DNA from: Sedimentimonas flavescens
Lineage (GTDB): Bacteria; Pseudomonadota; Alphaproteobacteria; Rhodobacterales; Rhodobacteraceae
NCBI RefSeq assembly: GCF_019264375.1
Contig: NZ_JAHVAI010000005.1
Coordinates: 62,001-126,000, forward strand
DNA: 64,000 nt
Reading direction: 5' to 3'
The translations under genes and the position numbers were made by a program. Every line of letters begins with the position of its first letter. Positions within the stretch are counted from its first letter, which is position 1. The notes under the pieces were generated by a model that ran no database searches, was not told where the DNA came from, and was given only the letters and a program-made list of their open reading frames with translations. This document shows positions 19,077 to 33,630 of this stretch, in pieces.

Positions 19077-20077
19077 TGCCCGCAGGCGCAACGATTTTCG
19101 GCTGCGCAGGATTGGCTCTTTCGCCGTCCGAGGCTTCGTTCTTTCGCGCATCGGACCCCTGGGGCTTCATCCTGTTTTCGCGGAATATCGAAACACCGGA
19201 ACAGGTTGCGCGGCTTTGTTCATCTATGCGCGAGGCTGTGGACCGCGATGCACCGATCCTGATCGACCAAGAGGGCGGCCGTGTCCAACGCTTGCGCGCA
19301 CCGCATTGGCGCGAGTGGCTGCCGCCGCTCGATCAGGCCCGCGCCGCGAGCGATGCACCGCGCAGTTTCTGGCTCCGCGCGCGCATTCAGGCAGATGAGC
19401 TGCGCGCGATTGGCATTGATGCCAACTGCGCGCCCACCTGCGATATCGCGGGGCCGCGCACCCATCCCTTCTTGCAGAACCGGTGCCTTGGCACCGATGC
19501 CGCAACGGTGATCGCGAATGCCCGTGCCACGGCCGAGGGCTTCCTCGCGGGGGGCGTGTTGCCGATCCTCAAGCATATGCCGGGGCATGGCCGCGCCGAG
19601 GCCGACAGCCATCTGGACCTGCCGGTGGTCGGGGCCGATCCCGCCGATCTGGCGCAGGCCGACTTCGCGCCGTTCCTGGCGCTGCGCGATCTGCCGCTCG
19701 GGATGACCGCACATATCCGCTTCACCGCCTTCGATCAGGTGCCCGCCACGCAAAGCCGCAAGATGATCGCGCTGATCCGCGAGCAGATCGGTTTTGACGG
19801 TCTTCTGATGACCGACGATATCGGGATGGAGGCGCTTTCGGGCAGCAAGGGCGCGCGCGCCGCGGCCTCGATCGCGGCGGGATGCGATGTAGTGCTCTAT
19901 TGCAAGGGTGACATGGGGCCGATGGAAGAGGTCGCCGAGGCCGCAGGCCAGCTGACGCCGGAGGCTGCCGGCCGTGCAGATGCGGCACTTGCCCGCCGCC
20001 ATGCGCCTGACCCCGTTGACATCGCCGCGCTCGAAGCCGAACTTGTGGCTTTGTTGGGCGATGGGGCGGATGTCTGA
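19076..20077 (+). CDS. nagZ: Beta-N-acetylhexosaminidase (NagZ)
   Basis: Cytoplasmic glycoside hydrolase family 3 enzyme that removes GlcNAc from anhydromuropeptides during cell-wall recycling. The 333-residue protein has the substrate segment LIDQEGGRVQRLR near residue 61 and the NagZ catalytic loop KHMPGHGRAEADSHLDLP starting at residue 166, whose histidine acts as general acid/base. The nucleophile aspartate lies in LLMTDDIGMEAL near residue 245. There is no signal peptide, as expected. It shares one base with the upstream SPOR gene and overlaps scpA. Confidence 0.95.
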   Translation: MPAGATIFGCAGLALSPSEASFFRASDPWGFILFSRNIETPEQVARLCSSMREAVDRDAPILIDQEGGRVQRLRAPHWREWLPPLDQARAASDAPRSFWLRARIQADELRAIGIDANCAPTCDIAGPRTHPFLQNRCLGTDAATVIANARATAEGFLAGGVLPILKHMPGHGRAEADSHLDLPVVGADPADLAQADFAPFLALRDLPLGMTAHIRFTAFDQVPATQSRKMIALIREQIGFDGLLMTDDIGMEALSGSKGARAAASIAAGCDVVLYCKGDMGPMEEVAEAAGQLTPEAAGRADAALARRHAPDPVDIAALEAELVALLGDGADV

Positions 20078-20870
20078 GGAAAGCCACCTTTTCGAAGCGA
20101 TGAGCGTCAGCGAGCGGCTTCAGGCCGAGGCGCTGATCGTCGATGTGGATGGCTTCGAAGGGCCGCTCGATCTGCTTCTGTCGCTGTCGCGCACGCAGAA
20201 GGTGGACCTGCGCAAAATCTCGGTGCTCCAACTCGCCGAGCAGTATCTGACCTTTGTCGAGCGTGCCAAAGCACTGCGGATCGAACTGGCAGCCGATTAT
20301 CTGGTGATGGCCGCCTGGCTCGCCTTTCTGAAATCCAAGCTTCTCTTGCCGCCCGAGCCGGGGGCGGATGGCCCCTCGGCCGAGGATCTGGCCGCCCACC
20401 TGGCCTTCCAGCTTGAACGCCTTGCCGCTATGCGCGACGCCGCCGCCAAGCTGATGGCACGCGACCGTCTGGGCCGCGATTTCTTTGCACGCGGAGTTTC
20501 GGAAGAGGTCGAGCGCGTGCGCAAGGTCCAGTACTCGGCCTCGCTTCTTGATCTGATGCAGGCCTATGCCCGGATCCGCACCCGCGACGAATTCCGCCCC
20601 TATGCCTTTGATCGTAAAGACGTCTTCACCTTGGAGCAGGCGCTCGAACGGATGCGCGGGCTTGTCGGCTTCGCGATGGAATGGACCGATCTGGTCAGCT
20701 ACCTGCCCGAGGGCTGGGGTCTGGACCCCAAGCGTCGCCGCACCGCCACCGCCGCCACATTCGCCGCCTCGCTCGAACTGGCCAAGCAGGGCCAGATTGA
20801 GATCCGCCAGTCCGAGACCTTCGCGCCGATCTCGATCCGCGCCGCGCAACCCCGGAACCGCAATGACTGA
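20070..20870 (+). CDS. scpA: Segregation and condensation protein A (kleisin)
   Basis: Kleisin subunit of the SMC-ScpAB condensin that organises the chromosome. The 266-residue protein carries the hallmark VDGFEGPLDLLLSLSRTQKVDLRKISVLQLAEQY from about residue 24 (N-terminal Smc-binding domain) and a winged-helix C-terminus. I chose the ATG at 20070 (MSEESHLFEAMSV), overlapping nagZ by 8 bp. ATGs at 20061 and 20100 are alternatives. scpB overlaps its end by 8 bp. No smc gene lies in the window. Confidence 0.93.
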   Translation: MSEESHLFEAMSVSERLQAEALIVDVDGFEGPLDLLLSLSRTQKVDLRKISVLQLAEQYLTFVERAKALRIELAADYLVMAAWLAFLKSKLLLPPEPGADGPSAEDLAAHLAFQLERLAAMRDAAAKLMARDRLGRDFFARGVSEEVERVRKVQYSASLLDLMQAYARIRTRDEFRPYAFDRKDVFTLEQALERMRGLVGFAMEWTDLVSYLPEGWGLDPKRRRTATAATFAASLELAKQGQIEIRQSETFAPISIRAAQPRNRND

Positions 20871-21492
20871 TACCGAGAAATCTCTTTTCGAAGCCCCGCC
20901 GCTGGCCGAGCAGGAACGCATGGTCGAGGCGATCCTGTTCGCCTCGGTAGAGCCGGTGACGCTGCGCGAGATGGAAGAACGGATGCCGCATGGCTCTGAC
21001 CCCGCCGAGGCGCTGGTCTATCTGCGCAAACGCTACGAGGGGCGCGGGGTGCGCGTCGTCAAGGTGGGCGATGCTTGGGCGATCCGCACCGCGCCTGACC
21101 TCGCCTTCCTGATGCAAAAGGAAACGGTGGAGCAGCGCAAGCTCTCGCGTGCAGCGATCGAGACGCTCGCCATCGTCGCCTATCACCAGCCCGTCACCCG
21201 CGCCGAGATCGAGGAGATTCGCGGCGTCGCGGTCAGCCGGGGCACCATCGACCAGTTGCTCGAGATGGAATGGATCCGCTTCGGTCGGCGCCGCATGACG
21301 CCGGGCCGCCCGGTCACCTTCGTCGTCACGCAGCAGTTCCTCGATGAATTCGGCCTTGAAAGCGCCCGTGACTTGCCGGGCCTCAAGGAGTTGCGCGCGG
21401 CGGGCCTTCTCGACAACCGCCCGATGCCGGGCGGCGCAAGCGACGATGACGACGAGGATGTAACCGGCCAGAGCGAGCTTTTCGAGGATTGA
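20863..21492 (+). CDS. scpB: Segregation and condensation protein B
   Basis: Partner of ScpA in the SMC complex. The 209-residue protein has two winged-helix domains; family signatures are VEAILFASVEPVTLREM near residue 20, IETLAIVAYHQPVTRAEIEEIRG near residue 98 and RGTIDQLLEMEWI near residue 126. The C-terminus is an acidic tail (DDDDEDVTGQSELFED). The ATG at 20863 overlaps scpA by 8 bp, typical of this pair. The frame is open far upstream inside scpA but only this start gives the family N-terminus. Confidence 0.94.
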   Translation: MTDTEKSLFEAPPLAEQERMVEAILFASVEPVTLREMEERMPHGSDPAEALVYLRKRYEGRGVRVVKVGDAWAIRTAPDLAFLMQKETVEQRKLSRAAIETLAIVAYHQPVTRAEIEEIRGVAVSRGTIDQLLEMEWIRFGRRRMTPGRPVTFVVTQQFLDEFGLESARDLPGLKELRAAGLLDNRPMPGGASDDDDEDVTGQSELFED

Positions 21493-21497
21493 GCGCC

Positions 21498-21695
21498 ATG
21501 AACACCGATCGCCTCAGCGGCACGCTCTTTCGCATCCTGTTCCGGCCCGTGACGGATCTGGTCATCAACCTTCTGGTCGGGCGCGGCAAGGCCCCGTCAG
21601 AGATGACCAAGGCCGAGCGCGCTCAGGCCCGTACCGCCCGCAAGGCCGTCACGCAGGCGCGCCGAGCAGCCCGTATCACCCGCCGTCTGCGCTAA
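21498..21695 (+). CDS. Small basic hypothetical protein after scpB
   Basis: A 65-residue protein whose function I do not recognise. The N-terminal half has a short hydrophobic, possibly amphipathic helix (LFRILFRPVTDLVINLLVG). The C-terminal half is strongly basic (RAQARTARKAVTQARRAARI). The ATG at 21498 is preceded by GAGGATTGAGCGCC, and it starts 5 bp after scpB. An in-frame TTG at 21489 is possible. The basic tail suggests nucleic acid or membrane-surface binding, which is a guess. Its last 20 bp overlap the convergent YigZ-like gene. Confidence 0.6.
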   Translation: MNTDRLSGTLFRILFRPVTDLVINLLVGRGKAPSEMTKAERAQARTARKAVTQARRAARITRRLR

Positions 21696-22044
21696 GACCC
21701 AGATCCGCCAGATAGATCCGCACGGCCTCCTGCACGTGGCGGAAGCGGTCGCCACCCAGATGCTTGCCGCCATACCAGCGCGTCACCACGATCAGATGGT
21801 CGCGCAACCCGGCGCGCTCCAGCATCCGCAGGATGATCACCCCGGCGCCGCTCTCGCCATCGTCATTCTTCACCGGCCCCGCAGCGCATAGCAGCCCCCA
21901 GGTGTTATGCGTGGCCTTGGCGTATTTCTTGGCCCGCTTCAACTCCCGGATCAGCGCCTTCGCCTCGTCCTCAGATGCGCAAGGCGCCCCGGAGACGGCA
22001 TATTTCGACCCGCGGTCGCTGATGATGTCCTCGATGATGCGCAT
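21676..22044 (-). CDS. YigZ/IMPACT (UPF0029) family protein, short form
   Basis: The 122-residue protein matches only the N-terminal UPF0029 domain of YigZ/IMPACT: SRGSKYAV-like start, THNTWGLLCAAG, NDDGESGAGV and TRWYGGKHLGGDRF, the most conserved segments. Usual bacterial YigZ proteins are about 200 residues with an added ferredoxin-like domain that is absent here. The start ATG at 22044 has a strong AGGAGG site. Family members interfere with translation-linked regulators in eukaryotes; the bacterial role is unclear. The gene ends inside the convergent small basic gene. Confidence 0.85.
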   Translation of the reverse strand: MRIIEDIISDRGSKYAVSGAPCASEDEAKALIRELKRAKKYAKATHNTWGLLCAAGPVKNDDGESGAGVIILRMLERAGLRDHLIVVTRWYGGKHLGGDRFRHVQEAVRIYLADLGLSADGG

Positions 22045-22089
22045 CGGGCCTCCTGAAAAAGATGCCGCAAGCCACTTTCGGCTTTGCAC

Positions 22090-22137
22090 AAATATCCCGG
22101 GGGTGAGCGCGGAACGCGCGAGGGGGCTGGCCCCCTC
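22090..22137. repeat. Rhodobacteraceae-type intergenic hairpin element, copy A
   Basis: AAATATCCC then GGGGGTGAGCGCG, a GCGCG/CGCGC palindrome and a 7-bp hairpin GAGGGGG-CTGG-CCCCCTC (22120-22137) whose end overlaps the dCTP deaminase stop codon. In the minus direction it follows that gene and could act as a terminator or 3' stabiliser. It shares its AAATATCC plus GGGGGT word and terminal G/C hairpin with copy B at 31183-31222. Confidence 0.6.
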
Positions 22138-23215
22138 AGCCCGCCCGGAAATGCTTAGCGAGCTTGAGGCCCTGACCCTGATAGTTCGAGGCGATGCCGG
22201 TGCCATAAAGCCGCTCGGGGCGTTCGGCCATGCGCTCATAGACCAGCCGCCCGACGACCTGTCCGTGCTCAAGCACGAAGGGCGCCTCGTGGCAGCGCAC
22301 TTCCAACACCCCGCGCGACCCAGTGCCACCGGCAGTCCCATGGCCGAAGCCCGGGTCAAAGAAGCCCGCGTAATGCACCCTGAACTCGCCCACCATCGCC
22401 AGATAGGGCGCCATCTCGGCGGCAAAATCCGGCGGGATCGTCACCGCCTCGCGCGACACGAGGATATAGAACGCACCGGGGTCGAGGATGATCCGACCGT
22501 CGCGGGTGCGGATCTCCTCCCAGAATTCCGAGGCCGGGTAATGTGCGATCCGGTCGAGGTCGATCACCCCGGTATGCGGCTTCGCGCGGTAGCCCACCAG
22601 ATCGCCTTCCGCGGGCAGCAGATCGACCGAGAAGCCGAGCCCGTGGTCGATCACCGCCTCGCCCGAGACCAGCGGCTCGGCCATGTGCAGGATCTTCAGC
22701 TCCGCATCGCTCAGCATCGCCTGACCCGCGCGGAAGCGAATCTGGTTGAGCCGCATTCCCGGCCGCACCAGCACCGAGAACGAGCGCGGGCAGATTTCGG
22801 CGTAGAGCGGGCCAGTGTAACCCTCGGGGATTCGGTCGAATTCCGTGCCGCCATCGGTAATGACGCGCGTCAGCAGATCTAGCCGCCCGGTCGAGCTTTT
22901 GGCATTCGCGACGGCGGTTAGGCCGGCGGGTAGGGCAAGCCCCTCCATCAGCGGCACCAGATAAACGCAGCCCTTTTCGAGCACCGCGCCGTTGGACAGG
23001 TCCATGCGGTGCATCTCGAATTCGGCAAGCTTGGTGTCGACGCGCTGGTTGCGCCCGGCCAGGAACGAGGCGCGGATGCGGTAGGCCACCTGACCAAGGC
23101 GCAGGTCGAGGCTTGCGGGCTGGATCTGCTCGGGCAGGACGGGGATCGTCGCGCTGATCTCGCCGCGCTCGATCATCGCACGGATGGCGCTGTCGGCCAG
23201 AACGCCTTGGGTCAT
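22136..23215 (-). CDS. dcd: 2'-deoxycytidine 5'-triphosphate deaminase, long two-domain form
   Basis: Converts dCTP to dUTP for thymidylate synthesis. The 359-residue protein is about twice the length of the Escherichia coli trimeric enzyme. It appears to contain two dUTPase-like folds: one near residues 20-190 with ANAKSSTGRLDLLTRVITDGG and PEGYTGPLYAEICPRSFSV, the other near 215-340. Long forms occur in alphaproteobacteria. The ATG at 23215 is preceded by GGGGGAACGAG. It is followed on its 3' side by hairpin element copy A, and upstream lies tRNA-Pro. Confidence 0.85.
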   Translation of the reverse strand: MTQGVLADSAIRAMIERGEISATIPVLPEQIQPASLDLRLGQVAYRIRASFLAGRNQRVDTKLAEFEMHRMDLSNGAVLEKGCVYLVPLMEGLALPAGLTAVANAKSSTGRLDLLTRVITDGGTEFDRIPEGYTGPLYAEICPRSFSVLVRPGMRLNQIRFRAGQAMLSDAELKILHMAEPLVSGEAVIDHGLGFSVDLLPAEGDLVGYRAKPHTGVIDLDRIAHYPASEFWEEIRTRDGRIILDPGAFYILVSREAVTIPPDFAAEMAPYLAMVGEFRVHYAGFFDPGFGHGTAGGTGSRGVLEVRCHEAPFVLEHGQVVGRLVYERMAERPERLYGTGIASNYQGQGLKLAKHFRAG

Positions 23216-23276
23216 GTCTCGTTCCCCCGGATATGCGAACGCCCACCCCGCGGAACGGGATGGGCGTTGTTCGAGA

Positions 23277-23354
23277 TGGTCGGGCCGGAGAGATTCGAAC
23301 TCTCGACCTTCCGCCCCCCAGACGGACGCGCTAACCAGGCTGCGCCACGGCCCG
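23277..23354 (-). tRNA. tRNA-Pro (anticodon GGG), CCA encoded
   Basis: Reading the minus strand from 23354, the cloverleaf is complete: acceptor stem CGGGCCG/CGGCCCG, D stem GCGC/GCGC, anticodon stem TCCGT/GCGGA with loop CTGGGGG (U33, anticodon GGG), and T arm GAGAG-TTCGAAT-CTCTC. Discriminator A and an encoded CCA occupy 23280-23277. It reads proline codon CCC (and CCU). Total 78 nt including CCA. Confidence 0.96.
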
Positions 23355-23474
23355 ACGAGGCGCATATAGAGGCATCCGGGCGGCGGGCGCAAGCGGCAAA
23401 ACGCATTTTTCCGCAACGCTCTGCACGCGAGATATCGGTGTGCAGCCGGGCAGGGGAAAGCGGCAGGGCAAGCA

Positions 23475-24191
23475 TTATTCTGCCCGGCCAAGCGTCGCCG
23501 CAGCCAGGCGGCTGCGCAGGGCAACCAGCCTCGATTTGGCGGCCTTGAGCGTGTCTCTCTCCGCCTCGCTCAACTGCGTGCCAGACAGGGCGCGCAGGCG
23601 CTGCGACATCGGCGGAGTGGGGTCGGCCTCGGGCGGAGCGGGGGGATTCGGCGCCCCGCGTGCGGTCGCAAGCTCAACAATCTCGGCGCCCGGTGTCGCT
23701 TCTGGCTCAACATCTAGCGCCATGGGGGCCTCTGGCGCCGGTTCGTCAAAGAACGAGGGCTGACGCCAGCTTGCTTTCGACGGTGGCGCGGCAGGCACAG
23801 GGTCTTGCGGGTCGGGGGGGAACTGCGCGGCCGGGGATTCGGGTTCCGGCTCGGGGGCGGCGGGCCAGGGCGCGGCCTCCGGCGTCGCGTCGGTCGCCTC
23901 TTCTTCCGCCGCACTCAGATCGATCGTGGCAAGCGACATGACGTGGCGCACGCCCTCATCCTTCAGCAGCTTTTGCACGCCGCGAATGGCCATGCCATCC
24001 TCATGCAGCAGGCGCTTGATACCACCCAGCAAAAGGATGTCCTCGGGGCGGTAGTAACGCCGCCCGCCAGCACGCTTCACCGGCTTGATTTGTGCAAAGC
24101 GACTTTCCCAGAACCGCAGCACATGCGTCGGCGTATCGAGGATCGTCGAGACCTCGGAGATCGTGCGGAAGGCATCGGCTGATTTCGCCAT
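23475..24191 (-). CDS. MerR-family transcriptional regulator with long Pro/Ala-rich linker
   Basis: A 238-residue protein with an N-terminal MerR winged HTH (residues about 9-77: [20 protein letters not shown], then [19 protein letters not shown]). A Pro/Glu/Ala-rich disordered segment follows (about 95-200), then a short C-terminal helix that could dimerise. No metal-binding cysteines are seen, so it is not a classical metal sensor. It follows ihfA at the end of the yceD-rpmF-plsX-fabH-ihfA group, a position conserved in alphaproteobacteria. Start: ATG 24191, with an in-frame GTG one codon upstream. The ligand is unknown. Confidence 0.85.
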
Positions 24192-24244
24192 CACGCCGCC
24201 TTTCTTGTTCGCCTGCTCTTAGCGCCCCGAAACGGGGCAGCGCC

Positions 24245-24547
24245 TCAGTTCGCGTTGCCGGCGGCCACGCGATCCTTCATCAGATGCGAGGGGCGGAAGG
24301 ACAGCACGCGCCGCGGCGAGATCGGCACTTCTTCGCCGGTCTTGGGGTTGCGACCCATGCGAGACGACTTTTCGCGCACCGAGAACGTGCCGAAGGACGA
24401 GATCTTCACCGTCTCGCCGCGCACCAGCGCATCGGAGAGATGCTGCAGAACGCTTTCGACAAGCTGTGCGGATTCATTGCGCGACAGCCCGACCTCGCGG
24501 AACACCGCTTCGCTCAAATCCATGCGCGTCAAGGTCTTCTCAGGCAT
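24245..24547 (-). CDS. ihfA: Integration host factor subunit alpha
   Basis: DNA-bending HU-family protein that pairs with IHF-beta. The 100-residue protein has the HU/IHF fold: N-terminal helices [21 protein letters not shown], the [21 protein letters not shown] arm near residues 50-70 and [19 protein letters not shown] at the C-terminus. I used the ATG at 24547 (MPEKTLTRM), preceded by a G-rich site. The frame runs 13 codons further up without similarity. It lies between fabH and the MerR gene, as in many alphaproteobacteria. Confidence 0.95.
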
Positions 24548-24652
24548 ACCATCCCCCCGGATTGATTTTGACAACGATGGGGGCAATGAAATCCCGAGTC
24601 AATATCAATGACTTGGGCGGCGCTTTTCAAGCGTGTGGAAAGGCCGTTCTGC

Positions 24653-25627
24653 TTACCAGCGCAGCACGACGGCGCCCCAGGCAAGCCCGCCGCCGATCGC
24701 TTCGGTCACGACAATGTCGCCGGTCTTGATCTGGCCACGTTGCTTGCCGACCGAAAGCGCCAGGGGAATCGAGGCGGCCGAGGTGTTGCCATGGTCCTGA
24801 ACGGTCACAACGACACGCTCCAACGGCACCTGCATCCGCTCGGCGGTAGCCGAGATGATGCGCAGATTCGCCTGGTGCGGCACGATCCAGTTCACGTCCT
24901 CGCCCGACATGCCGATCTTGCCAAGCGCGGTATGCGCGGTCTCGGCCAGCTTCTGGACAGCGTGTTTGAAGACGGCATTGCCCTGCATGCGCAGCTGGCC
25001 TGCCTTGCCGTTCGACGACACGCCCCCATCGACATAAAGCAGTTCGCGGTAGCGGCCATCCGAATGCAGATCGGTCGACAGGACGCCGCGATCCTTGTTG
25101 GTGCCAGAGCCGTTCGCCGCTTCGAGAATCAGTGCGCCTGCGCCGTCGCCGAACAGCACGCAGGTGCCGCGGTCTTCCCAGTCCATGATGCGCGAGAAGG
25201 TCTCGGCGCCGATCACCAGAACGCGCTCGGCCTGGCCCGAAACGATGAGGCCGTTGGCATTCGTCAGCGCGAAGACGAAGCCCGCGCAGACCGCCTGGAT
25301 GTCATAGGCAAAACCGTTGGTCGAGCCGAGGCCCGCCTGGACCATCGTCGCGACCGAGGGAAAGGTGAGGTCGGGCGTCGAGGTCGCCACAACGATCGCG
25401 TCGATCTGGTCGGCGGTCATGCCCGCGTCGATCAGCGCGGCCTGCGCGGCCTTGATGGCGAGCTGCGAGGTCGTCTCACCTTCGGCGGCGAAGTGTCGTT
25501 GCTCGATTCCCGTGCGGGCGCGGATCCAGTCGTCGGTCGTGTCCAGCGTGGCCTCGAACTCGGCATTCTTGACGATGCGCTCGGGCAGATAATGCCCAAC
25601 GCCCCGGACCACGGCTCTGATTTTCAT
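24653..25627 (-). CDS. fabH: 3-oxoacyl-[acyl-carrier-protein] synthase III (KAS III)
   Basis: Starts fatty-acid synthesis by condensing acetyl-CoA with malonyl-ACP. The 324-residue thiolase-fold protein has the full catalytic triad: Cys114 (QAVCAGFVFAL), His251 (VPHQANLRI) and Asn281 (DHGNTSAASIPLAL). ATG at 25627 overlaps the plsX stop by ATGA, so the two lipid genes are translationally coupled. Length is typical. It is followed by ihfA after 105 bp. Confidence 0.97.
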   Translation of the reverse strand: MKIRAVVRGVGHYLPERIVKNAEFEATLDTTDDWIRARTGIEQRHFAAEGETTSQLAIKAAQAALIDAGMTADQIDAIVVATSTPDLTFPSVATMVQAGLGSTNGFAYDIQAVCAGFVFALTNANGLIVSGQAERVLVIGAETFSRIMDWEDRGTCVLFGDGAGALILEAANGSGTNKDRGVLSTDLHSDGRYRELLYVDGGVSSNGKAGQLRMQGNAVFKHAVQKLAETAHTALGKIGMSGEDVNWIVPHQANLRIISATAERMQVPLERVVVTVQDHGNTSAASIPLALSVGKQRGQIKTGDIVVTEAIGGGLAWGAVVLRW

Positions 25628-26742
25628 GATACTTTCTCGCTGGTTTCGTCGCCTTGGGGCGCATCCTGCCCCGAGACTGACGCCGAGGCAACCCGTGCTG
25701 CGAGTTTCGCGCTGAAGCCCGAGCGGGCGAGGCGTGCCGCCAGGTCTACCGCAGCGGCGACGCCGGTCGCGTCGGCCGAGCCATGCGACTTCACCACGGT
25801 TCCGTTCAACCCTAGGAAAACGCCACCATTTGCGCGGCGCGGGTCGATCCGCTCCTTCATTCGCTTGAGCGGACCCATGGCCAGCAGCGCCCCCAGCTTG
25901 GCCAGCGGCGAGGCGGTCAGCGCCTCGCGCATCAATTCACCAGCGAGCCTCGCCGTGCCTTCGCCGGTCTTGAGCGCGATATTGCCAGTGAACCCATCGG
26001 TCACGATCACGTCAACGCGGTTCGACGGCAGGTCATTGCCCTCGACGAAGCCGATGAATTCGAACTGACCGGCGTCCTGCGCCTTGGTCATCAGGTCATA
26101 GGCGACCTTGAGTTCGGCGTGGCCCTTGTGCTCTTCGGTGCCGACGTTGAGCAGGCCGACACGCGGGCGGGTCAGGCCAAGCGCGTTGCGCGCGTAGGAC
26201 GTGCCCATCAGACCATAGGTCAGCAGGTCGGCTGCCTCTGCCTTCACGTCGGCGCCCATGTCGAGCATGACGTTCCAGCCCGTCGGGTTGCGCGAGGGCC
26301 AGAAGGAGGCGATCGCGGGGCGGTTCACGCCCGGCAGCTTGCGCAGGCGGATCATCGATATGGCCATGAGCGCGCCGGTGTTCCCGCAGGATACCGCCAC
26401 TTCGGCTTCCTTGGCGCGCACCGACTCGATCGCGGACCACATGGAGGTGCCCTTGCCGTTGCGCATCACCGCCGCGGGCTTGTCGTGCATCGTCACCACG
26501 CCTTCGGCATGGTGGATCTCGCAGCGCTCGGTCAGGCCACGTGCGGCCAGCAGCGGGGCGAGGGTGCCTTCGGGGCCATGCAGGATGAACCGCAGGCTTG
26601 GCGATTTCTGCGCGGCAAGCGCCAGGCCATCGACGATGGCCTCGGGTCCGCGGTCGCCGCCCATCGCGTCGATGGAAATGACGATGGCGCCGGAATCACC
26701 CGGCGCCTTGGCCACGTCGTGGCCTTGATCAATATTTTCCAT
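25624..26742 (-). CDS. plsX: Phosphate acyltransferase PlsX
   Basis: Makes acyl-phosphate from acyl-ACP for phospholipid synthesis. The signature ISIDAMGGDRGPEAIVDGL begins near residue 22, and SCGNTGALMAISMIRLRKLPGVNRPAI near residue 125 matches the family. I propose the ATG at 26742 (372 residues). The frame is open to a TTG at 26811, with another ATG at 26799, and none of the three has a strong ribosome site, so the start is uncertain. The C-terminal 20 residues are Ala/Ser-rich. It lies between rpmF and fabH, the classic cluster. Confidence 0.93.
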   Translation of the reverse strand: MENIDQGHDVAKAPGDSGAIVISIDAMGGDRGPEAIVDGLALAAQKSPSLRFILHGPEGTLAPLLAARGLTERCEIHHAEGVVTMHDKPAAVMRNGKGTSMWSAIESVRAKEAEVAVSCGNTGALMAISMIRLRKLPGVNRPAIASFWPSRNPTGWNVMLDMGADVKAEAADLLTYGLMGTSYARNALGLTRPRVGLLNVGTEEHKGHAELKVAYDLMTKAQDAGQFEFIGFVEGNDLPSNRVDVIVTDGFTGNIALKTGEGTARLAGELMREALTASPLAKLGALLAMGPLKRMKERIDPRRANGGVFLGLNGTVVKSHGSADATGVAAAVDLAARLARSGFSAKLAARVASASVSGQDAPQGDETSEKVS

Positions 26743-26825
26743 GTCGGACCGGCCCTGATCCTGCCCCGTGGTCTTCGGAATGTCCTGCACAGCGGGCATG
26801 ATATCGGGCAAGCGACGGCGCGGGC

Positions 26826-27032
26826 TTACGCCGCGTCGTCGTCCAGATCGACCTCGGCAGCCTGAGCCACCACTTCGCGGTCGTCATAGTGACCGCAGGC
26901 GCCACAAACGTGGTGCGGGCGCTTCAGCTCGCCGCAGTTCGGGCACTCCGCCGGGTTGCCGGCAACAAGAGCGTCATGCGCACGGCGCATGTTGCGACGG
27001 GAACGCGTAACTCGGTTCTGAGGGACAGCCAT
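26826..27032 (-). CDS. rpmF: Ribosomal protein L32 (zinc-binding form)
   Basis: Large-subunit ribosomal protein of 68 residues, beginning [21 protein letters not shown] as in other alphaproteobacterial L32. Four cysteines at 30, 33, 43 and 46 (CPNC ... CGAC) form a zinc ribbon, so this is the C+ type. The acidic tail DLDDDAA is unusual-looking but harmless. It sits between yceD and plsX, the usual arrangement. Confidence 0.97.
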
Positions 27033-27225
27033 GTCTCAACCTCGGGTGTTCGGGGGCGTTACAGCCCTGATTTTCCTGGAGTTTCGTCACTGGCGCCAGG
27101 TGGCGGACCGGGTGCGAACCCAAACTTTGAATGAGGCCGGGAACATACTGCGATTCTGATCCGGCGCAAGTCCTTTTTCTCCCTTTTTTTTCCGCCCTCG
27201 AAACCGGGCGGCTTCAGGCAGGACG

Positions 27226-27810
27226 TCAATCGTTTTCGCCCGACCCGTTGCCCTTTCCGGCCAGCAGATCGCGCAGGTTGGCAAACGGGCGGGTGGCTTC
27301 ATCGGTCAACTCTTCGGCCCCGTCGGGTACCGCGCTCAGGCGTGCGTCGGGTTCCAACTCGGTTGCGCGCGGGTAAAGCGGCAGGGCGAGTTCGAGTGCC
27401 TCGAGCGCGACTGCGGCAAGGTCAATCTCGGCGCGCAGAGGCTCAAGCGTGTCGTCTTCGGGCATTTCGACCTCGTCACCCGTGGGCTCGGGCAGGTCGG
27501 CCAGGTAGTGGCGCGTAATCTCTTCGGCCAGATCGGTCGTGACCGGCGCCAGCGTGACCGCGCAGGGCTGCACGACGCGGGCCGTAAAGGCAGCCTCAAG
27601 CAGCCAGTCGCTGCGGCCCTTTGCGGTCAGCGTGCCCTTCAGGCGCAGCGATTTCACCGCCGAGATGCCCGCCCATTGCGCGATCGCCGCGCAGGTGGCG
27701 GCGTCGGGGCGGATGTCGAAGCGGTTGGGTTTGCGCCCCGCCAGATCGGCCACGCGCCGCGGCTCGCTCCAGGGCAGGGGGGTGTTCGGGTCGAAGGCGG
27801 CGTCACTCAT
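27226..27810 (-). CDS. yceD: YceD family protein (DUF177)
   Basis: A 194-residue cytosolic protein with the DUF177 pattern: KGTLTAKGRSDWLLEAAFTARVVQPCAVTLAPV, then an acidic middle segment and a C-terminal PFANLRDLLAGKG. In YceD proteins CxxxLxPV-like segments and the PFA.L motif are conserved; here a single Cys is present. Related proteins are linked to 23S rRNA accumulation in bacteria and plants. The ATG at 27810 has AAAGGAT upstream. The 193-bp gap to rpmF contains a CCGCCC/GGGCGG hairpin (27192-27211) but no T-run on this strand, so read-through to rpmF is likely. Confidence 0.88.
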   Translation of the reverse strand: MSDAAFDPNTPLPWSEPRRVADLAGRKPNRFDIRPDAATCAAIAQWAGISAVKSLRLKGTLTAKGRSDWLLEAAFTARVVQPCAVTLAPVTTDLAEEITRHYLADLPEPTGDEVEMPEDDTLEPLRAEIDLAAVALEALELALPLYPRATELEPDARLSAVPDGAEELTDEATRPFANLRDLLAGKGNGSGEND

Positions 27811-27934
27811 GGATGTTATCCTTTGCTTTTCCCGCGCCATGGCGCAGCTTGGCTCGCAACGCGCTTGAGGGCCGTGCCAGCATGTTGTAAGCGGGATAAA
27901 AGGCCAAAGGCTATGAGGCAAGAGGGGGTTTCAG

Positions 27935-28399
27935 GTGGGACGCGAAACGGTCACGCGGCGCGGGGCGCTTGCACTGGCACTCGGCGCGGCGCTTCTGGCG
28001 GCGGGGTGCTCGCCAGTCTATCGCAACCACGGCTACGTCCCTCTGGAAGAGGATCTGGCGAAGATCGAGGTCGGCAAATCGACGCGCGACGATGTCGCGG
28101 CGGCGGTTGGACGCCCGTCCTCGGCCGGTCTGCTTGAGGGTTCGGGCTGGTATTACGTAGGCTCGCGCTGGAAGCATTACGGTGCGTTCCCGCCCGAGGA
28201 ACTGGATCGCCAGGTCGTCGCGATCACCTTTACCCAAGCGGGCGTCGTCGAGAATGTTGAGCGTTTCGGGAGTGAGCGTGGCGAAGTCGTTGTGCTGTCG
28301 CGGCGCGTGACCGAGACCTCGATCAAGGGTATCGGCTTCGTTCAGCAGCTCATGGGCTCGTTCGGTCGGGTTTCGGCCGGCCAGGTCCTCGACCGCTGA
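27935..28399 (+). CDS. bamE: Outer-membrane assembly lipoprotein, BamE/SmpA-OmlA type
   Basis: Small lipoprotein of the BAM complex that inserts beta-barrel proteins into the outer membrane. The 154-residue protein has a signal peptide with lipobox LAAGC, the lipidated cysteine at residue 25. The SmpA/OmlA fold follows: VPLEEDLAKIEVGKSTRDDVAAAVGRPSS and WYYVGSRWKHYG. The start is GTG at 27935, behind AGAGGGGG. It diverges from yceD, leaving a 124-bp shared promoter region. Confidence 0.9.
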   Translation: MGRETVTRRGALALALGAALLAAGCSPVYRNHGYVPLEEDLAKIEVGKSTRDDVAAAVGRPSSAGLLEGSGWYYVGSRWKHYGAFPPEELDRQVVAITFTQAGVVENVERFGSERGEVVVLSRRVTETSIKGIGFVQQLMGSFGRVSAGQVLDR

Positions 28400-28502
28400 T
28401 TTCTTTCCTGGACGGGGTGCCGCGCTGCGGCATCTTTCGTCTTGCGCAGCGTTGGCCATCGGCTAGGCTTTGGACAGGCTCGACACCTGTCCGGGGGGAA
28501 GG

Positions 28503-29267
28503 ATGCAGGCGCTCAGCAAGGGTCGATATACCGTTCGTCTGGCAAGCACGCCGCAGGATGTGGGTGCCGCGCAGGCGCTACGCTGGAAGGGGTTCCTCAG
28601 CCGCAAGCACGGCGTAGGCGTGACGTCTCAGGATGCGCGGCTTGACGCCGACGGGTTCGACCCGATCTGTCAGCATGTGCTGGTCGAGGATGCGCAGTCG
28701 GGTCGGCTCGTCAGCTGCTTTCGCCTCTTGCCGCTGCGGGATGGCTCCGAGATCGGCCGCAGCTATTCGGCGCAATATTACGACCTGTCGGCGCTGCGGG
28801 GCTTCGATCTGCCGATGGTCGAGATGGGGCGCTTCTGCATCGACCCAGAGTGTCAGGACCCAGACATCCTGCGCCTTGCCTGGGGGGCGGTGACGCGCTT
28901 TGTCGATGAGACCGGGGTGGGGATGCTGTTTGGCTGTTCGTCCTTCACCGGAACCGATTGGACGCATTACAGCGATTCCCTCGCGCTGCTGGCCGCGCGC
29001 CACCTTGCGCCCGCCGAGTGGGCCCCGCGCGAGGCGGCGCCCTCGGTTGTCCGCTATTCCGAACGTCTGGCCGCGCATATGCCTGATGCCAAGACTGCCC
29101 AACAGCGGATGCCGCCGCTATTGCGCACCTATCTGCTGATGGGGGGCTGGGTCAGCGATCACGCGGTGGTCGATCCCGCGCTGGACACGTTCCATGTCTT
29201 CACGGGGCTTGAGATCGCCGCCATCCCGCCCGCCCGCGCACGTGCGCTACGGCTGGTCGCGGGCTGA
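28503..29267 (+). CDS. olsB: L-ornithine N-alpha-acyltransferase (OlsB-like)
   Basis: Transfers a 3-hydroxyacyl chain from ACP to ornithine, the first step of ornithine-lipid synthesis. The 254-residue protein matches the OlsB/hemolysin-like GNAT family: AQALRWKGFLSRKHG near residue 24, DPICQHVLVED, a catalytic core LRGFDLPMVEMGRFCIDPE and GVGMLFGCSSFTGTDW. Start ATG at 28503 follows GGGGGAAGG. The partner acyltransferase OlsA, often adjacent, is not found in the window, so the second acylation would need a gene elsewhere. An autoinducer-type substrate is less likely given these motifs. Confidence 0.82.
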   Translation: MQALSKGRYTVRLASTPQDVGAAQALRWKGFLSRKHGVGVTSQDARLDADGFDPICQHVLVEDAQSGRLVSCFRLLPLRDGSEIGRSYSAQYYDLSALRGFDLPMVEMGRFCIDPECQDPDILRLAWGAVTRFVDETGVGMLFGCSSFTGTDWTHYSDSLALLAARHLAPAEWAPREAAPSVVRYSERLAAHMPDAKTAQQRMPPLLRTYLLMGGWVSDHAVVDPALDTFHVFTGLEIAAIPPARARALRLVAG

Positions 29268-29317
29268 GACCGCAGCTAGCCGTTGACGTTTTCCTTACGC
29301 CCGAGTAGCCGGAGCGC

Positions 29318-31135
29318 ATGGCACGCGCACCCCTTCTTCAGCTCTCCGGCATCTCGCTCACCTTCGGCGGCAACCCCGTTTTCGACGGCCTCGATCTGGT
29401 CGTGCAGCCCGGCGACCGGGTTGCCCTGGTCGGCCGCAACGGCTCGGGCAAATCGACGCTGATGAAGGTGATGGCCGGGCTGGTCGAACCCGATCACGGT
29501 GAGCGGATCGTGCCCGTCGGCGTGCGTGTCGGCTACATGGAGCAGGAGCCCGACCTGTCGGCTTTCGCGACGCTCGGTGATTTTGCGGCTTCGGCGTTGG
29601 ATGCCGCGGAACGCTACAAGGTCGATATGGTGGCGGAGGGGCTGAAGTTCCGCCCCGACACGCCGGTCGAGACCGCCTCGGGGGGCGAGCGGCGCCGTGC
29701 TGCGCTGGCCAAGCTGCTGGCCGAGGCGCCGGAGCTGATGCTGCTCGACGAACCGACGAACCACCTCGACATTCAGGCCATCGGCTGGCTTGAGGAACAA
29801 CTGCGCGACACCCGCACCGCCTTCGTCCTGATCTCGCACGACCGTGCTTTTCTGCGCGCACTGACCCGCGCGACGCTCTGGATCGACCGCGGGCAGGTGC
29901 GTCGGCAGGAACGCGGCTTCGAGACCTTCGAGGAATGGCGCGAGCAGGTCTGGGCCGAGGAAGACGAGGCCCGCCACAAGCTCGACCGCAAGATCAAGGC
30001 CGAGGCGAAATGGGCGGTCGAAGGCATCTCGGCCCGGCGCAAGCGCAACATGGGGCGCGTGCGTGCGCTGCAGGCCCTGCGCGAGGAACGCGCCAGCCAG
30101 ATCCGTCGTCAGGGCACCGCCGCGATGGAACTCGACGCGGGCACCCAATCGGGCAAGCGCGTGATCGAAGCGCGCGGCCTGTCCAAGCGCTACGCCGAGA
30201 AGCAGATCGTCAAGAACTTCGACCTGCGCGTGCTGCGCGGCGACCGCGTGGCCTTCGTTGGCCCGAACGGTGTGGGTAAGACCACGCTGCTGAAGATGCT
30301 GACCGGAGAGGTCGCGCCGGACGAGGGCGCCGTCACGCTCGGCACCAACCTCGAGGTTGCGGTTTTCGATCAGGCCCGCGCCACCCTCGATTTCAGCATG
30401 TCGCTTTGGGACGGGATGGTGAACGACCCTGACATGCGCGTCTCGGGGCGCTCCGATCAGGTGATGGTGCGTGGCACGCCCAAGCATGTCGTCGCCTATC
30501 TGAAAGACTTCCTCTTCGACGAACAGCAGGCCCGCGCGCCCATCGGCTCGCTCTCGGGCGGCGAACGCGCGCGGCTCTTGCTGGCGCGGATCATGGCCAA
30601 GCCCTCGAACCTGCTGATCCTGGACGAACCGACGAACGATCTCGACGTTGAGACGCTCGACCTGCTGCAAGACATCCTTGGCGAATACGACGGCACCGTG
30701 CTTCTGGTCAGCCACGACCGTGACTTCATCGATCGCGTCGCCACCACCACCATCGCGATGGAAGGGGATGGCCGCGCCACCGTCTATGCGGGCGGCTGGA
30801 GCGATTATCAGGCGCAGAAAGCCCTGAGCGCCCCGGATAAATCCGTCGAGAAGCCCGCGCCGAAGAAGGCGGAAGCCACCCCCGCGCCCAAGGAAGCGCC
30901 GAAGAAATCCGGCCTCAGTTTCACCGAAAAGCACCGCCTCGAAGCCCTTCCGGGGATCATAGAAAAGCTTGAGTTCGAAATCGGCAAGCTCTCGGAGCTG
31001 CTCGGCGACCCGGATCTCTTCACGCGCGAGCCGGTCAAGTTCCGCAAGGCGACCGATATGCTCACCGAACGCCAGGCCACGCTCAGCGCCGCCGAGGAGG
31101 AATGGCTGACGCTCGAAGAAAAGGCACAGGGCTGA
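29318..31135 (+). CDS. uup: ABC-F family ATPase (Uup-like)
   Basis: Soluble tandem ATPase with no membrane domain; ABC-F proteins act on ribosomes or branched DNA. The 605-residue protein has two nucleotide-binding domains, with Walker A GRNGSGKST (residue about 43) and GPNGVGKTT (about 319). Signatures are SGGERRRAALAKLL and LSGGERARLLLARI, and both Walker B motifs are followed by DEPTN. An inter-domain linker lies near residues 200-270. The C-terminal 80 residues form a Lys/Pro/Ala linker and a coiled coil (KHRLEALPGIIEKLEFEIGK), the Uup hallmark. Confidence 0.9.
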   Translation: MARAPLLQLSGISLTFGGNPVFDGLDLVVQPGDRVALVGRNGSGKSTLMKVMAGLVEPDHGERIVPVGVRVGYMEQEPDLSAFATLGDFAASALDAAERYKVDMVAEGLKFRPDTPVETASGGERRRAALAKLLAEAPELMLLDEPTNHLDIQAIGWLEEQLRDTRTAFVLISHDRAFLRALTRATLWIDRGQVRRQERGFETFEEWREQVWAEEDEARHKLDRKIKAEAKWAVEGISARRKRNMGRVRALQALREERASQIRRQGTAAMELDAGTQSGKRVIEARGLSKRYAEKQIVKNFDLRVLRGDRVAFVGPNGVGKTTLLKMLTGEVAPDEGAVTLGTNLEVAVFDQARATLDFSMSLWDGMVNDPDMRVSGRSDQVMVRGTPKHVVAYLKDFLFDEQQARAPIGSLSGGERARLLLARIMAKPSNLLILDEPTNDLDVETLDLLQDILGEYDGTVLLVSHDRDFIDRVATTTIAMEGDGRATVYAGGWSDYQAQKALSAPDKSVEKPAPKKAEATPAPKEAPKKSGLSFTEKHRLEALPGIIEKLEFEIGKLSELLGDPDLFTREPVKFRKATDMLTERQATLSAAEEEWLTLEEKAQG

Positions 31136-31182
31136 TCTGACGCAGCGTCACTTTGGCCAAGGCTTCCCCTCTTCAATGTGGT

Positions 31183-31222
31183 GAAAATATCCTGCGGGGG
31201 TCCGGGGGTGCAAAACCCCCGG
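31183..31222. repeat. Rhodobacteraceae-type intergenic hairpin element, copy B
   Basis: AAAATATCC, TGC, GGGGGT and then a 7-bp hairpin CCGGGGG (31202-31208) TGCAAAA CCCCCGG (31216-31222). It lies between the ABC-F gene and the CaiB-type gene. It shares the AAATATCC + GGGGGT + G/C hairpin plan with copy A at 22090-22137 in the opposite functional context, i.e. after a plus-strand gene. Confidence 0.6.
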
Positions 31223-31239
31223 CCTAACGGGAGAATTTC

Positions 31240-32349
31240 ATGCAGCATGCACCGCAGGGGCCCCTGACAGGTCTTCGCATCGTCGAGATCTCAGGTCTTG
31301 GCCCCACGCCCTTCACGGCGCAACTCTTTGCCGATATGGGTGCCGAGGTGATCCGCATCGCGCGCCCCAATTCCGCGGGGGCCGAAAACCACGTGCTCGG
31401 CATGGAGAACGACCCGCTCGACCGGGGCCGCGATGTGCTCGAACTTGACCTCAAGAACCCGGAACACCATGCCATCGCGCGCCGCCTGATCCTGCGTGCC
31501 GACGCGTTGATCGAGGGGATGCGCCCCGGCGCGATGGAGCGCCTTGGCCTTGGCCCCGAAGATTTTCCCGAGAACCCGGCCCTCGTTTACGGTCGCATGA
31601 CCGGCTGGGGGCAAAACGGCCCGCTGGCGCATAGGGCAGGGCATGACATCAATTATCTGGCCCTGTCCGGCGCGCTCGGCGCGATCGGAACCGCTGAAAC
31701 GCCGGTGGTCCCGCTCAACCTCGTGGGCGATTTCGGCGGCGGCACGATGTATCTGGCCTTTGGCATGATGACGGCGCTGTGGTCGGTGCGCACGAGCGGT
31801 CGCGGGCAGGTCGTCGATGCGGCGATCACCGACGGGGTGGCAAGCCTTCTGGGCATGATCCACGGGATGGCGGGGAACGGCCTGTGGTCGGACCGCCGGG
31901 GCGAGAACATGATCGACGGCGGTATCCCGTGGTACGGCACCTATGCCTGCGCTGATGGCGGGCATATGGCGATTGGCCCGCTCGAGCCGAAGTTCTGGGC
32001 CGAGCTGCAACGACTGATGGGCTTTGCCGAGGGTGAGTTGCCCGACCGCGCCGACAAGACCCGCTGGCCCGCCCTGCGCGCGGCGCTTGCGGCGCGCTTT
32101 GCGGAAAAGACGCGCGACGAATGGGCCGCGATCCTTGAACCCTCCGACGCCTGCGCGACGCCGGTACTGATGCTCTCCGAGGCCGTGCACCACCCGCATA
32201 ATGTCGCCCGAGGGGCCTATCTTGAACACGAGGGCATGGTTCAACCCGCCCCCGCGCCCAAGTTGTCGCTGACCCCGGGGGCGATCGGTCCGGGCTCGAC
32301 CCGGAACCGTATCCCCCCCGAGGAGGCGCTCAACCGCTGGCAGGCCTAG
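31240..32349 (+). CDS. CaiB/BaiF family CoA-transferase, alpha-methylacyl-CoA racemase-like
   Basis: Class III CoA-transferase fold; by resemblance to Amacr it may be an alpha-methylacyl-CoA racemase acting on branched acyl-CoAs. The 369-residue protein has [30 protein letters not shown] at the N-terminus, [16 protein letters not shown] near residue 69, [27 protein letters not shown] near residue 118 and the CVTPV-like [12 protein letters not shown] near residue 305. The exact substrate cannot be told from sequence. The stop overlaps the convergent YjhX-type gene by 4 bp. Confidence 0.88.
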
Positions 32350-32600
32350 CGGTTGTCCGGCTGCGCGCGCACCGACAGGCGCCCGCGCAGCGAGATCCGG
32401 TAGGGTCGGCCGTTCTGGCTTTCGATCAGCCGCCGCTTGCGCAACCGCGCGAACAGATCGAGCGTGCAATCGCTCAGGATCAGCCCGTCGCGTGTTACGC
32501 AGAGCACTTCGGTGATCTTGCCAGCCTCGCGCATATGTCGGATCTGCCCGCCCTGCGCCAGCGCGTGAAGCACGCGCTGTTCGCGTTTCGAGATATTCAT
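32346..32600 (-). CDS. YjhX family protein (UPF0386)
   Basis: An 84-residue protein matching UPF0386/YjhX across its length: [20 protein letters not shown] at the start, [20 protein letters not shown] in the middle and the ending [20 protein letters not shown], closely resembling the C-terminus I recall for Escherichia coli YjhX. YjhX has been proposed as the toxin of a toxin-antitoxin pair with the GNAT protein YjhQ, but evidence is weak. Here no GNAT gene is directly adjacent, although two lie 1.2-2.3 kb away on the other strand. The start ATG at 32600 has GAGGAC. Confidence 0.85.
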
Positions 32601-32788
32601 GATGTCCTCGAGTGGAAAGCATGGCACAAGACACCCGACCGCATCGGCGGCGGGGTGGATGTGTCCGGGGTCATCCCGGCTCACAGCTTGCGCACAGTCT
32701 CCAGCATCAAGGCTCCGTCATTGGCCGGGATGTTCCCGGCTCGCGGCCAAGATAGGTGGGGAATTCCCGCCAGACAAGGCCGAAGCCC

Positions 32789-32817
32789 TTGACAGGCGGG
32801 GGGTGGATCACCCATAA
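32789..32817 (+). promoter_or_regulatory. Predicted sigma-70 promoter of rplU-rpmA
   Basis: A perfect -35 box TTGACA at 32789-32794, a 17-bp spacer, and a -10-like CCATAA at 32812-32817. Transcription would start near 32824, giving a leader of about 135 nt before the rplU ATG. The quality of the -35 box suits a highly expressed ribosomal operon. Confidence 0.65.
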
Positions 32818-32825
32818 GCCCCCAA

Positions 32826-32854
32826 CCCGGCGGAAGGAGTCTCTTTCCGCCGGG
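32826..32854 (+). promoter_or_regulatory. Leader hairpin of the rplU mRNA
   Basis: A 10-bp perfect stem (CCCGGCGGAA at 32826-32835 with TTCCGCCGGG at 32845-32854) and a 9-nt loop GGAGTCTCT sit at the predicted 5' end of the transcript. It is followed by AATCGTTTTG, too weak for a clear terminator. It may stabilise the mRNA or serve as an autoregulatory leader for L21. That role is inferred. Confidence 0.5.
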
Positions 32855-32958
32855 AATCGTTTTGTAACAACGCCCCTGACGGGGCGCGCAGTCCGAGGCG
32901 GGGAAACCCGGCAAACCGAAAGGTGCCACAGGGCGCGGTTGACACAAAGGAATGGCCC

Positions 32959-33345
32959 ATGTTTGCGGTCCTCAAGACTGGCGGCAAGCAATACAAGGTT
33001 CAGGCGGGCGACGTGCTCCGCGTGGAACTGATTGCCGCGACGGCTGGCGATAAAGTCCAGTTCAACGAAATCCTGATGGTGGGCGGTGACACGCTGACCG
33101 TTGGCGCCCCGCTCGTCGAAGGTGCCGCGGTGGTTGCCGAAGTCATCGACAACATCAAGGCCGACAAGGTCATCACCTTGCACAAGCGCCGCCGCAAGCA
33201 CTCGTCGCAGCGCACCCGTGGCCACCGTCAGAAACTGACGCTGGTTCGCGTGACCGAAGTTCTCGCTTCGGGCGCCGACAAGTCGGGCGTGAAGGAAGCT
33301 GTTGGCACCGCTGCTGCGCGTCGCACCGCGCACGAAGCGAAGTAA
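32959..33345 (+). CDS. rplU: Ribosomal protein L21
   Basis: Large-subunit protein that binds 23S rRNA near L20. The 128-residue protein starts FAVLKTGGKQYKVQAGDVLRVE and contains the basic loop VITLHKRRRKHSSQRTRGHRQKLTLVRVTEV, the L21 signature. It is extended by an Ala-rich tail of about 25 residues (GADKSGVKEAVGTAAARR), as often in alphaproteobacteria. The ATG at 32959 follows AAAGGAATGGCCC. rpmA begins 15 bp downstream. Confidence 0.97.
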   Translation: MFAVLKTGGKQYKVQAGDVLRVELIAATAGDKVQFNEILMVGGDTLTVGAPLVEGAAVVAEVIDNIKADKVITLHKRRRKHSSQRTRGHRQKLTLVRVTEVLASGADKSGVKEAVGTAAARRTAHEAK

Positions 33346-33360
33346 GAGGAGGCCTGACCT

Positions 33361-33630
33361 ATGGCACACAAGAAAGCTGGCGGTTCTTCCCGCAACGGTC
33401 GCGACTCTGCTGGTCGTCGTCTTGGCGTGAAGCTCTACGGTGGCCAGGCGGCCATCCCGGGCAACATCATTGCGCGTCAGCGCGGCACCACCTGGTGGCC
33501 GGGTGAAGGCGTCATGATGGGCAAAGACCACACCATCTTCGCCGTTACCGAAGGCAAGGTTACCTTCCGCAAGGGCCTTAAAGGCCGCACCTTCATCTCG
33601 GTGCTCCCTGTTGCGGAGGCGGCCGAGTAA
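33361..33630 (+). CDS. rpmA: Ribosomal protein L27
   Basis: Large-subunit protein whose N-terminal arm reaches the peptidyl-transferase centre. The 89-residue protein begins [21 protein letters not shown], directly at the functional N-terminus with no Firmicute-type cleaved extension. It is followed by IAVRQRGT-like [16 protein letters not shown] and the [14 protein letters not shown] motif. The start follows GAGGAGGCCTGACCT-like spacing (AGGAGG). A strong terminator lies just downstream. Confidence 0.97.

Follow-up and report, generated by a model that had tools for sequence, protein, structure and literature searches.

A dispersed extragenic repeat of Rhodobacteraceae whose sequence obeys the rules for intrastrand DNA triplexes

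The REP/BIME elements of enterobacteria are extragenic, lie at the 3' ends of genes, occur as inverted pairs and are lineage-specific in sequence. Potential intrastrand triplexes (PITs) were reportedly the subject of work by Hoyne and Maher in 2000 and 2002, as cited by Holder et al. According to Holder et al. (2015, PMC4666352), bacterial PITs have been listed since 2000 without a proven role, and BoxC/TMECO is a PIT repeat of class II, with the order C-G-G on its G-rich strand. The tests summarised in PMC4666352 found BoxC inactive as promoter and as terminator and without effect in vivo, and the authors' own in vivo footprint did not reveal the fold. For the HRC-8-4 motif of Rhodobacterales, Brewer et al. 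(2021, PMC8632094) describe a main association with the ccoP-ccoG spacer and a U run behind the motif.

We compared a repeat from Sedimentimonas flavescens with these systems. From BoxC/TMECO, as the available text describes it, the repeat differs in its order on the G-rich strand, which is G-G-C (class I) rather than C-G-G (class II). The two share a G/C-rich hairpin with a third tract, intergenic copies, high copy number in some genomes with few copies in relatives, and inverted pairs in some cases; of the features that define BoxC/TMECO, intergenic copies and inverted pairs were thus found here and the class II order was not. A shortened form of the BoxC pattern CCCTCNCCC-GGGNGAGGG-GGGNGAGGG, as quoted in PMC4666352, matched 0 of 27 Rhodobacteraceae genomes, that of S. 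flavescens included, and 84 of 398 genomes in a sample of the whole phylum. In 32 BoxC-type sites, complementarity between loop and flank was seen 11 times against 10.3 by shuffling, so that these sites have no loop lock of the kind set out below, and neither an AAATAT core nor a shared tail is visible in the flanks listed for them. The genus names Rhodobacter, Paracoccus, Ruegeria and Roseobacter do not occur in the main text of PMC4666352, and of our 148 parsed elements only about 3 would pass its search settings (stems 6-15, loops 1-6). Separately, in some Pseudomonadota outside the family (e.g. G719, G723, G789 and G914) the number of matches to BoxC-type patterns rose to between 127 and 299 in a genome.

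The repeat is like REP/BIME in all four features named above. In contrast to the plain imperfect palindrome of REP/BIME, it has a third tract with a mirror rule, and a search of the S. flavescens genome for a cognate Y1_Tnp (RAYT) gene gave no match, which separates it from REP elements with a RAYT. With HRC-8-4, as described in the part of PMC8632094 consulted, it has in common a hairpin restricted to Rhodobacterales and located in spacers. Identity with HRC-8-4 was ruled out, as the S. flavescens ccoG locus (L268, 4350 bases) lacks the GG[AG]TA[CT]TT core on both strands and the elements occur at many other genes. Upstream of ccoG, the same locus has two inverted repeats of its own, TTCTGCTATGCAGCAGAA beside an A run and GGGCGGG..CCCGCCC. 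The literature searched, which lay mostly outside the subscription journals, held no description of the family, in agreement with the initial annotation, and none of a loop lock or of a changing tail. We conclude that the repeat family is real and apparently new, inside a known kind, the intrastrand triplex repeats.

Two window copies and the family they belong to

The window (the whole stretch of 64,000 nucleotides that was analysed) holds two copies, at 22090-22137 (copy A) and 31183-31222 (copy B), and both read as the initial annotation had described them. Its description of a hairpin with AAATAT and GGGGG motifs was correct as far as it went; it had missed a third tract, a lock between loop and flank, and a tail. 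The pattern AAATAT-N0-8-GGGGG matches copies A and B alone in the window, with 0.07 matches expected and two matches in 1 of 100 dinucleotide shuffles.

Anatomy was read from a line-up of 30 S. flavescens loci (27 distinct sites), followed by more sites from the same genome and from eight others. On the strand that ends in GGATATTT, the order is Gn - loop - Cn - linker - C'n - X - GGATATTT - 2-4 bases - tail, where X is 1-3 bases long; the tails of the window copies measure 11-13 nt. Copy A lies with its core on the minus strand (22090..22097), and its first bases fall inside the stop codon of a dcd-like gene (22136..23215, minus strand) that ends at the element. Hairpin 1 of copy A (22120..22137, minus strand) consists of GAGGGGG, the loop CCAG and CCCCCTC. 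Hairpin 2 (22107..22119, minus strand), with a 5-bp stem and a 3-nt loop, separates the two C-tracts. The third tract, C5 on the minus strand and G5 on the plus strand (22099..22103), stays unpaired when the secondary structure of either strand is predicted, and beyond its five Cs it is imperfect, reading CACCCCC where CTCCCCC is expected. X is a G (22098..22098, minus strand) that complements a loop C of hairpin 1, and the tail, GCAAAGCCGAAAG (22075..22087, minus strand), is of the second type in this genome. We take the dcd-like gene to encode a dCTP deaminase, by reading rather than by a family-library search. The nearest relatives of its protein are those of Rhodobacter viridis, Pseudothioclava arenosa and R. 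maris (90% identity), and a tRNA gene lies immediately upstream of it (23280-23354, minus strand).

Copy B also has its core on the minus strand (31185..31192) and lies between two plus-strand genes, antisense to both. The first, presumably an ABC-F-like ATPase gene from its translation (29318..31135), ends 49 nt ahead of the core; the second, which by its translation we take to be CaiB/CoA-transferase-like (31240..32349), starts 17 nt beyond the hairpin. Hairpin 1 (31202..31222, minus strand) comprises CCGGGGG, the loop TTTTGCA and CCCCCGG, with one A between it and the third tract (31196..31200; C5 on the minus and G5 on the plus strand). X is GCA (31193..31195, minus strand) and complements the loop bases TGC. 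The tail, CCACATTGAAG (31171..31181, minus strand), is of the main type in this genome. In the fold predicted for the plus strand, two bases of the core and of X' (the counterpart of X) are paired in the minimum-energy structure and not in the centroid.

The initial annotation had suggested a family-specific element with many copies, and genome searches confirmed this. In the S. flavescens genome (62 contigs, 3.38 Mb), AAATATCC-N0-6-GGGGG gave 50 matches, which represent 45 distinct sites once 5 double counts from G6 runs are removed, and the reversed pattern gave 0. The pattern is present in 234 of 292 genomes from an order-wide draw, all of them Rhodobacteraceae, at up to 194 matches per genome, compared to at most 2 for the reversed control. 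Of 385 genomes drawn from across the class, 72 had a match, including 3 of the 5 genomes of the same family; among the other 380, 69 had a match with at most 4 each, and the reversed control occurred in about 40 (counted by eye), also with at most 4. Outside Rhodobacteraceae, the pattern is thus close to background in the rest of the class. Relatives named from dcd-based loci include Rhodobacter, Thioclava, Paracoccus, Ruegeria and others. Regular expressions pass over degenerate copies, so all these counts are lower bounds on copy number, and the match counts of both draws, like those of the mirror comparison below, include overlapping matches. Core sites without a recognisable hairpin were discarded in parsing, before the tract, loop-lock, placement and tail counts that follow. 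A repeat that occupies dozens of spacers in many Rhodobacteraceae genomes has hereby been given an identity.

Individual copies vary in stems, linkers and second hairpins and nonetheless follow identical rules. Stems are short, mostly 5-6 triads. Among 146 parsed elements, linkers are at most 6 bases long in 59 (commonly GGA, GCA or TGCA), 7-40 bases in 85 and longer in 2, and a second parse found a second hairpin inside the linker in 82 of 148 elements. The three tracts are equal in length in 117 of the 146 elements (5/5/5 in 87, 6/6/6 in 25 and 4/4/4 in 5). Tails in S. flavescens read CCACATTGAAGG or GCAAAGCCGAAAGG, and other genomes have, for example, CCCAAAGAAG or GACAAGAAAAAG. In the seven genomes with at least 5 elements, 40-100% of within-genome pairs share a tail 6-mer, compared to a mean of 28% between genomes; one genome pair reaches 83%, so that genome-specificity of the tail is a tendency only.

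The mirror rule and the loop lock

Where the purine arm of a stem contains an A, the third tract reveals whether it follows antiparallel (Watson-Crick) or parallel (Hoogsteen) pairing; the two forms are indistinguishable in G/C-only elements. We observed 503 matches to the mirror form GAGGGG..CCCCTC..CTCCCC, in 92 of 149 genomes. The Watson-Crick control, with ..CCCCTC as third tract, gave 55 matches in 27 of the same 149 genomes, and the reversed patterns gave 7 (mirror) and 3 (antiparallel). Listed mirror matches mostly have a stereotyped 3-base linker, which the antiparallel matches lack. At 28 of 30 loci from five genomes (two of which are one site), X and then a TATTT core come next after the mirror tract; L223 and L236 deviate. 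A strict parser applied to one set of loci found 3 mirror elements and 1 antiparallel element among the distinct A-containing ones. The mirror-versus-antiparallel count rules out, as a general rule, a second Watson-Crick hairpin in which Gn would pair alternatively with the third tract. One strand of the element carries a purine tract, a complementary tract and a third tract that obeys the mirror rule, which is the general PIT motif. In one genome, GAGGGG..CCCCTC hairpin units were also seen head-to-tail with a 35-base period (G070:C1, 2730352-2730438 and 2759200-2759286).

X complements the hairpin loop in 135 of 145 elements under strict pairing, compared to a mean of 117 and a maximum of 126 in 5000 shuffles within length classes. 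When G-T wobbles are counted, the figure is 136 of 145, a small excess over the within-class shuffles (mean 132, maximum 138), and it is therefore the pairing of A with T and of G with C that gives the lock its strength. If each combination of genome, loop and X is counted a single time, 66 of 76 fit; if each combination of loop and X is, 26 of 35 do. For five-base loops and an X of one base, loop centre and X read C-G in 68 elements, T-A in 7 and C-T in 1, so the lock would here be a single base pair. Seven-base loops follow the same rule: TTTCACA or TCTCACA occurs with GTG (9 of 9), TTTTGCA with GCA (3 of 3), CTTCGCG with GCG (3 of 4), TTTTCCA with GGA (1 of 1) and CTGTCTG with GA (23 of 24). 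The letter could also be predicted beforehand. In genome G087, where the prediction covered 20 of 22 sites not previously examined, X was A in 15 of 15 T-centred loops and G in 5 of 5 C-centred loops. Of 22 elements parsed from 20 regions of genome G052, 20 fit the rule by reading and two break it (L291 and L300). Among the 145 elements above, 10 break the loop rule, as does a further one at L228.

A third tract of the same length which, on the C-rich strand, has the direction of the purine arm and whose far end reaches the loop to pair there is the predicted geometry of an intrastrand triplex locked by Watson-Crick pairs. Read on the G-rich strand, the element is 5'-tail-AAATATCC-X'-G'n-linker-Gn-loop-Cn. 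If this strand became single-stranded, for instance in a replication or transcription bubble, Gn and Cn could pair as a hairpin. G'n would then lie antiparallel in the major groove of the hairpin and form G.G-C triads, or A.A-T triads at any A-T pair of the stem; X' would base-pair with the loop and lock the third strand. At neutral pH, a run of five protonated C triads is unlikely. Holder et al. (PMC4666352), in the part available, state that the pyrimidine motif is able to form in RNA and the purine motif is not. On these two grounds, the fold is best sought in the G-rich strand of the DNA.

The pairing statistics point in the same direction. Among 488 pairs in the 82 second hairpins there are 1 G-T pair, 2 A-C pairs and 6 mismatches in all, a scarcity to which the stem scoring may contribute because it penalises mismatches. 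An RNA helix under selection normally retains more G-U pairs. The few G-T pairs, together with a missing orientation preference (see below), argue for DNA without proving it, and the scarcity could alternatively reflect young copies. We infer that folding takes place in DNA in the cell and that a trans-acting factor reads core and tail. A single family offers evolutionary evidence for the fold, in the form of mirror-rule compensation, equal tracts and a loop lock with a predictable letter. This makes an old question, that of three-stranded structures in living cells, testable, and the elements occur in genera that are grown in the laboratory.

Descent, tails and alternative heads

Thioclava pacifica (L049) and T. 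marina (L055) have a recognisable counterpart of the copy B spacer, at the same place ahead of the CaiB-like gene. Loop, X and core are kept in these orthologues, the basal pairs CC/GG are replaced by CT/AG, the copy in L055 has one mismatch in its G-tract, and the tail is different. Copy B was therefore inherited while its tail changed. The gene order dcd-yigZ around copy A was found in only one of 80 loci (L034), where an inward pair with other stems and another tail occupies the spacer; in the remaining loci other genes follow dcd. As a separate observation, a nearly identical long palindrome, CCAAATGTTTCGCGCGCGAAACATTTGG, lies within about 110 bases past the ABC-F stop codon at L046, L047, L089 and L102, with a few differing bases in L102. 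Three of these loci are from Leisingera and one is labelled Nocardioides marinus; the dcd of the latter is 78% identical to the query, and its label may be wrong.

Core and tail also occur under heads of another kind. In relatives, 40 intergenic sites with a C-tract and core comprised 28 with a parsed triplex head and 12 without, namely 8 with a CCTCCGGCGG head and 4 with neither; one of these 4 (L065) is a near-mirror triplex with CTCCCT. Ten intergenic sites from S. flavescens comprised 8 triplex heads and 2 others, of which L111 is a triplex in degenerate form. Another CCTCCGGCGG head, in genome G078 (L183), carries that genome's own tail. At L049, L055 and L183 the CCTCCGGCGG head faces a triplex element, the two forming an inward pair. 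Because core and tail also occur under non-triplex heads, we are less confident that function centres on the triplex: should core and tail be what matters, it may be just one of their partners. Sites at which a CCTCCGGCGG head without parsed triplex tracts precedes the same core and tail were noted at L037, L044, L049, L055 (two), L057, L072, L091 and L183.

Placement at gene ends and candidate roles

To determine placement, we surveyed sequence that was not picked for the presence of elements. Among spacers of at least 60 bp in 464 kb of the S. flavescens genome, window included, an element was found in 3 of 16 convergent, 5 of 131 tandem and 0 of 61 divergent spacers. In 80 loci of relatives (1.58 Mb), the corresponding figures were 8 of 95, 15 of 604 and 2 of 183. 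Comparison of convergent with divergent spacers gave p = 0.008 in S. flavescens and p = 0.003 in relatives. All 8 S. flavescens elements and 28 of 30 in relatives lie outside called genes, leaving 2 of 38 inside; gene calls came from a simple codon-usage finder and not from curated annotation. The preference for gene ends, on which the initial annotation had staked its proposal, survived this survey.

We read the repeat as a dispersed, extragenic element that follows intrastrand DNA triplex rules in its sequence and has a structural role at gene ends, a reading that we hold about as firmly as we doubt it. Against it count the non-triplex heads, the short stems, the insertion of 7-40 nt ahead of the third tract in 85 of 146 elements, the imperfect third tract of copy A, the G-tract mismatch in L055, locks of a single base pair, the elements that break the loop rule, and the inactivity of the related BoxC. 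Its likeliest role, by analogy with BoxC or BIME, would be that of a structural or protein-docking site at trailing gene ends. A wider version is more tentative and in our judgement somewhat improbable: the family would keep dozens to nearly 200 elements per genome as triplexes, with selection on the mirror rule and loop lock and a fast-changing host trans-acting factor reading core and tail, a chromosome-wide protein-triplex system at gene ends.

An unlikely alternative, though the strongest of those we weighed, acts at the RNA level. A family-specific bidirectional terminator or 3'-end stabiliser would use the G/C hairpin to halt polymerase or block 3' exonucleases, with AUAUUU as a pausing signal or a target of RNase E. 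Stop codon and hairpin start lie a median of 12 nt apart (n = 99, among 148 distinct elements), which, like the excess in convergent over divergent spacers, fits such a role. So do the strong hairpins on both strands, and R. sphaeroides RNase E favours AU-rich sites (PMC6238624). RNA energies average -19.7 and -20.2 for the two strands (lower for the R strand in 89 of 148 elements and for the S strand in 59). However, no T-run directly follows the hairpin in the window copies, which are not among the 6 terminator-like sites in 20000-33500, and single elements between tandem genes show no orientation preference (24 with the direction of the genes, 28 against). G-T pairs are nearly absent, and a plain hairpin needs neither a mirror rule nor a loop lock. 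The missing orientation preference, the missing T-run and the scarcity of G-T pairs together favour a role in DNA over a terminator.

We consider it less probable still that the repeat is a selfish, non-autonomous mobile element (REP/REPIN or MITE-like), its structure serving a transposase and its tail forming the recognition end. The range in copy number, from 0 to 194 matches per genome among the 292 family genomes, would suit mobility. The same holds for the 22 inward-facing pairs formed by the 148 elements, with a distance between cores of 40-55 bp in 17 pairs and 139-162 bp in 5, compared to no outward pair among parsed elements; at L044 two unparsed cores face outward from one palindrome. 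Many relatives lack an element behind dcd, although their neighbouring genes there mostly differ. Against mobility, Y1_Tnp/RAYT, the only transposase family searched, was found in 2 of 18 genomes, 1 of 12 high-copy ones and not in S. flavescens. Copies differ in stems, linkers and second hairpins under the same rules, unlike fresh copies, and copy B has been retained at its orthologous position in Thioclava. The initial annotation had proposed a terminator or a mobile palindromic repeat; family specificity and gene-end location hold, whereas a directional terminator and a RAYT-mobilised palindrome find no support.

Least probable of all, and in our view very unlikely, is an H-type RNA pseudoknot acting as a regulatory element in the transcribed strand, since the loop:X complementarity has that topology but a loop merely spanning the stem needs neither mirror rule nor equal tracts, five-base loops would give a helix of one pair, orientation preference is missing, and only tRNAs reach the Rfam gathering score in the window and five loci.

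A preference for pairing long with short loops, as reported for BoxC, was not significant among the 22 pairs (13 mixed, compared to about 10 expected at 38% long loops). At the G062 loci L144, L145 and L154, we observed a further small palindrome, e.g. TTTGAGTCAAA, which sometimes lies between the facing tails of paired elements.
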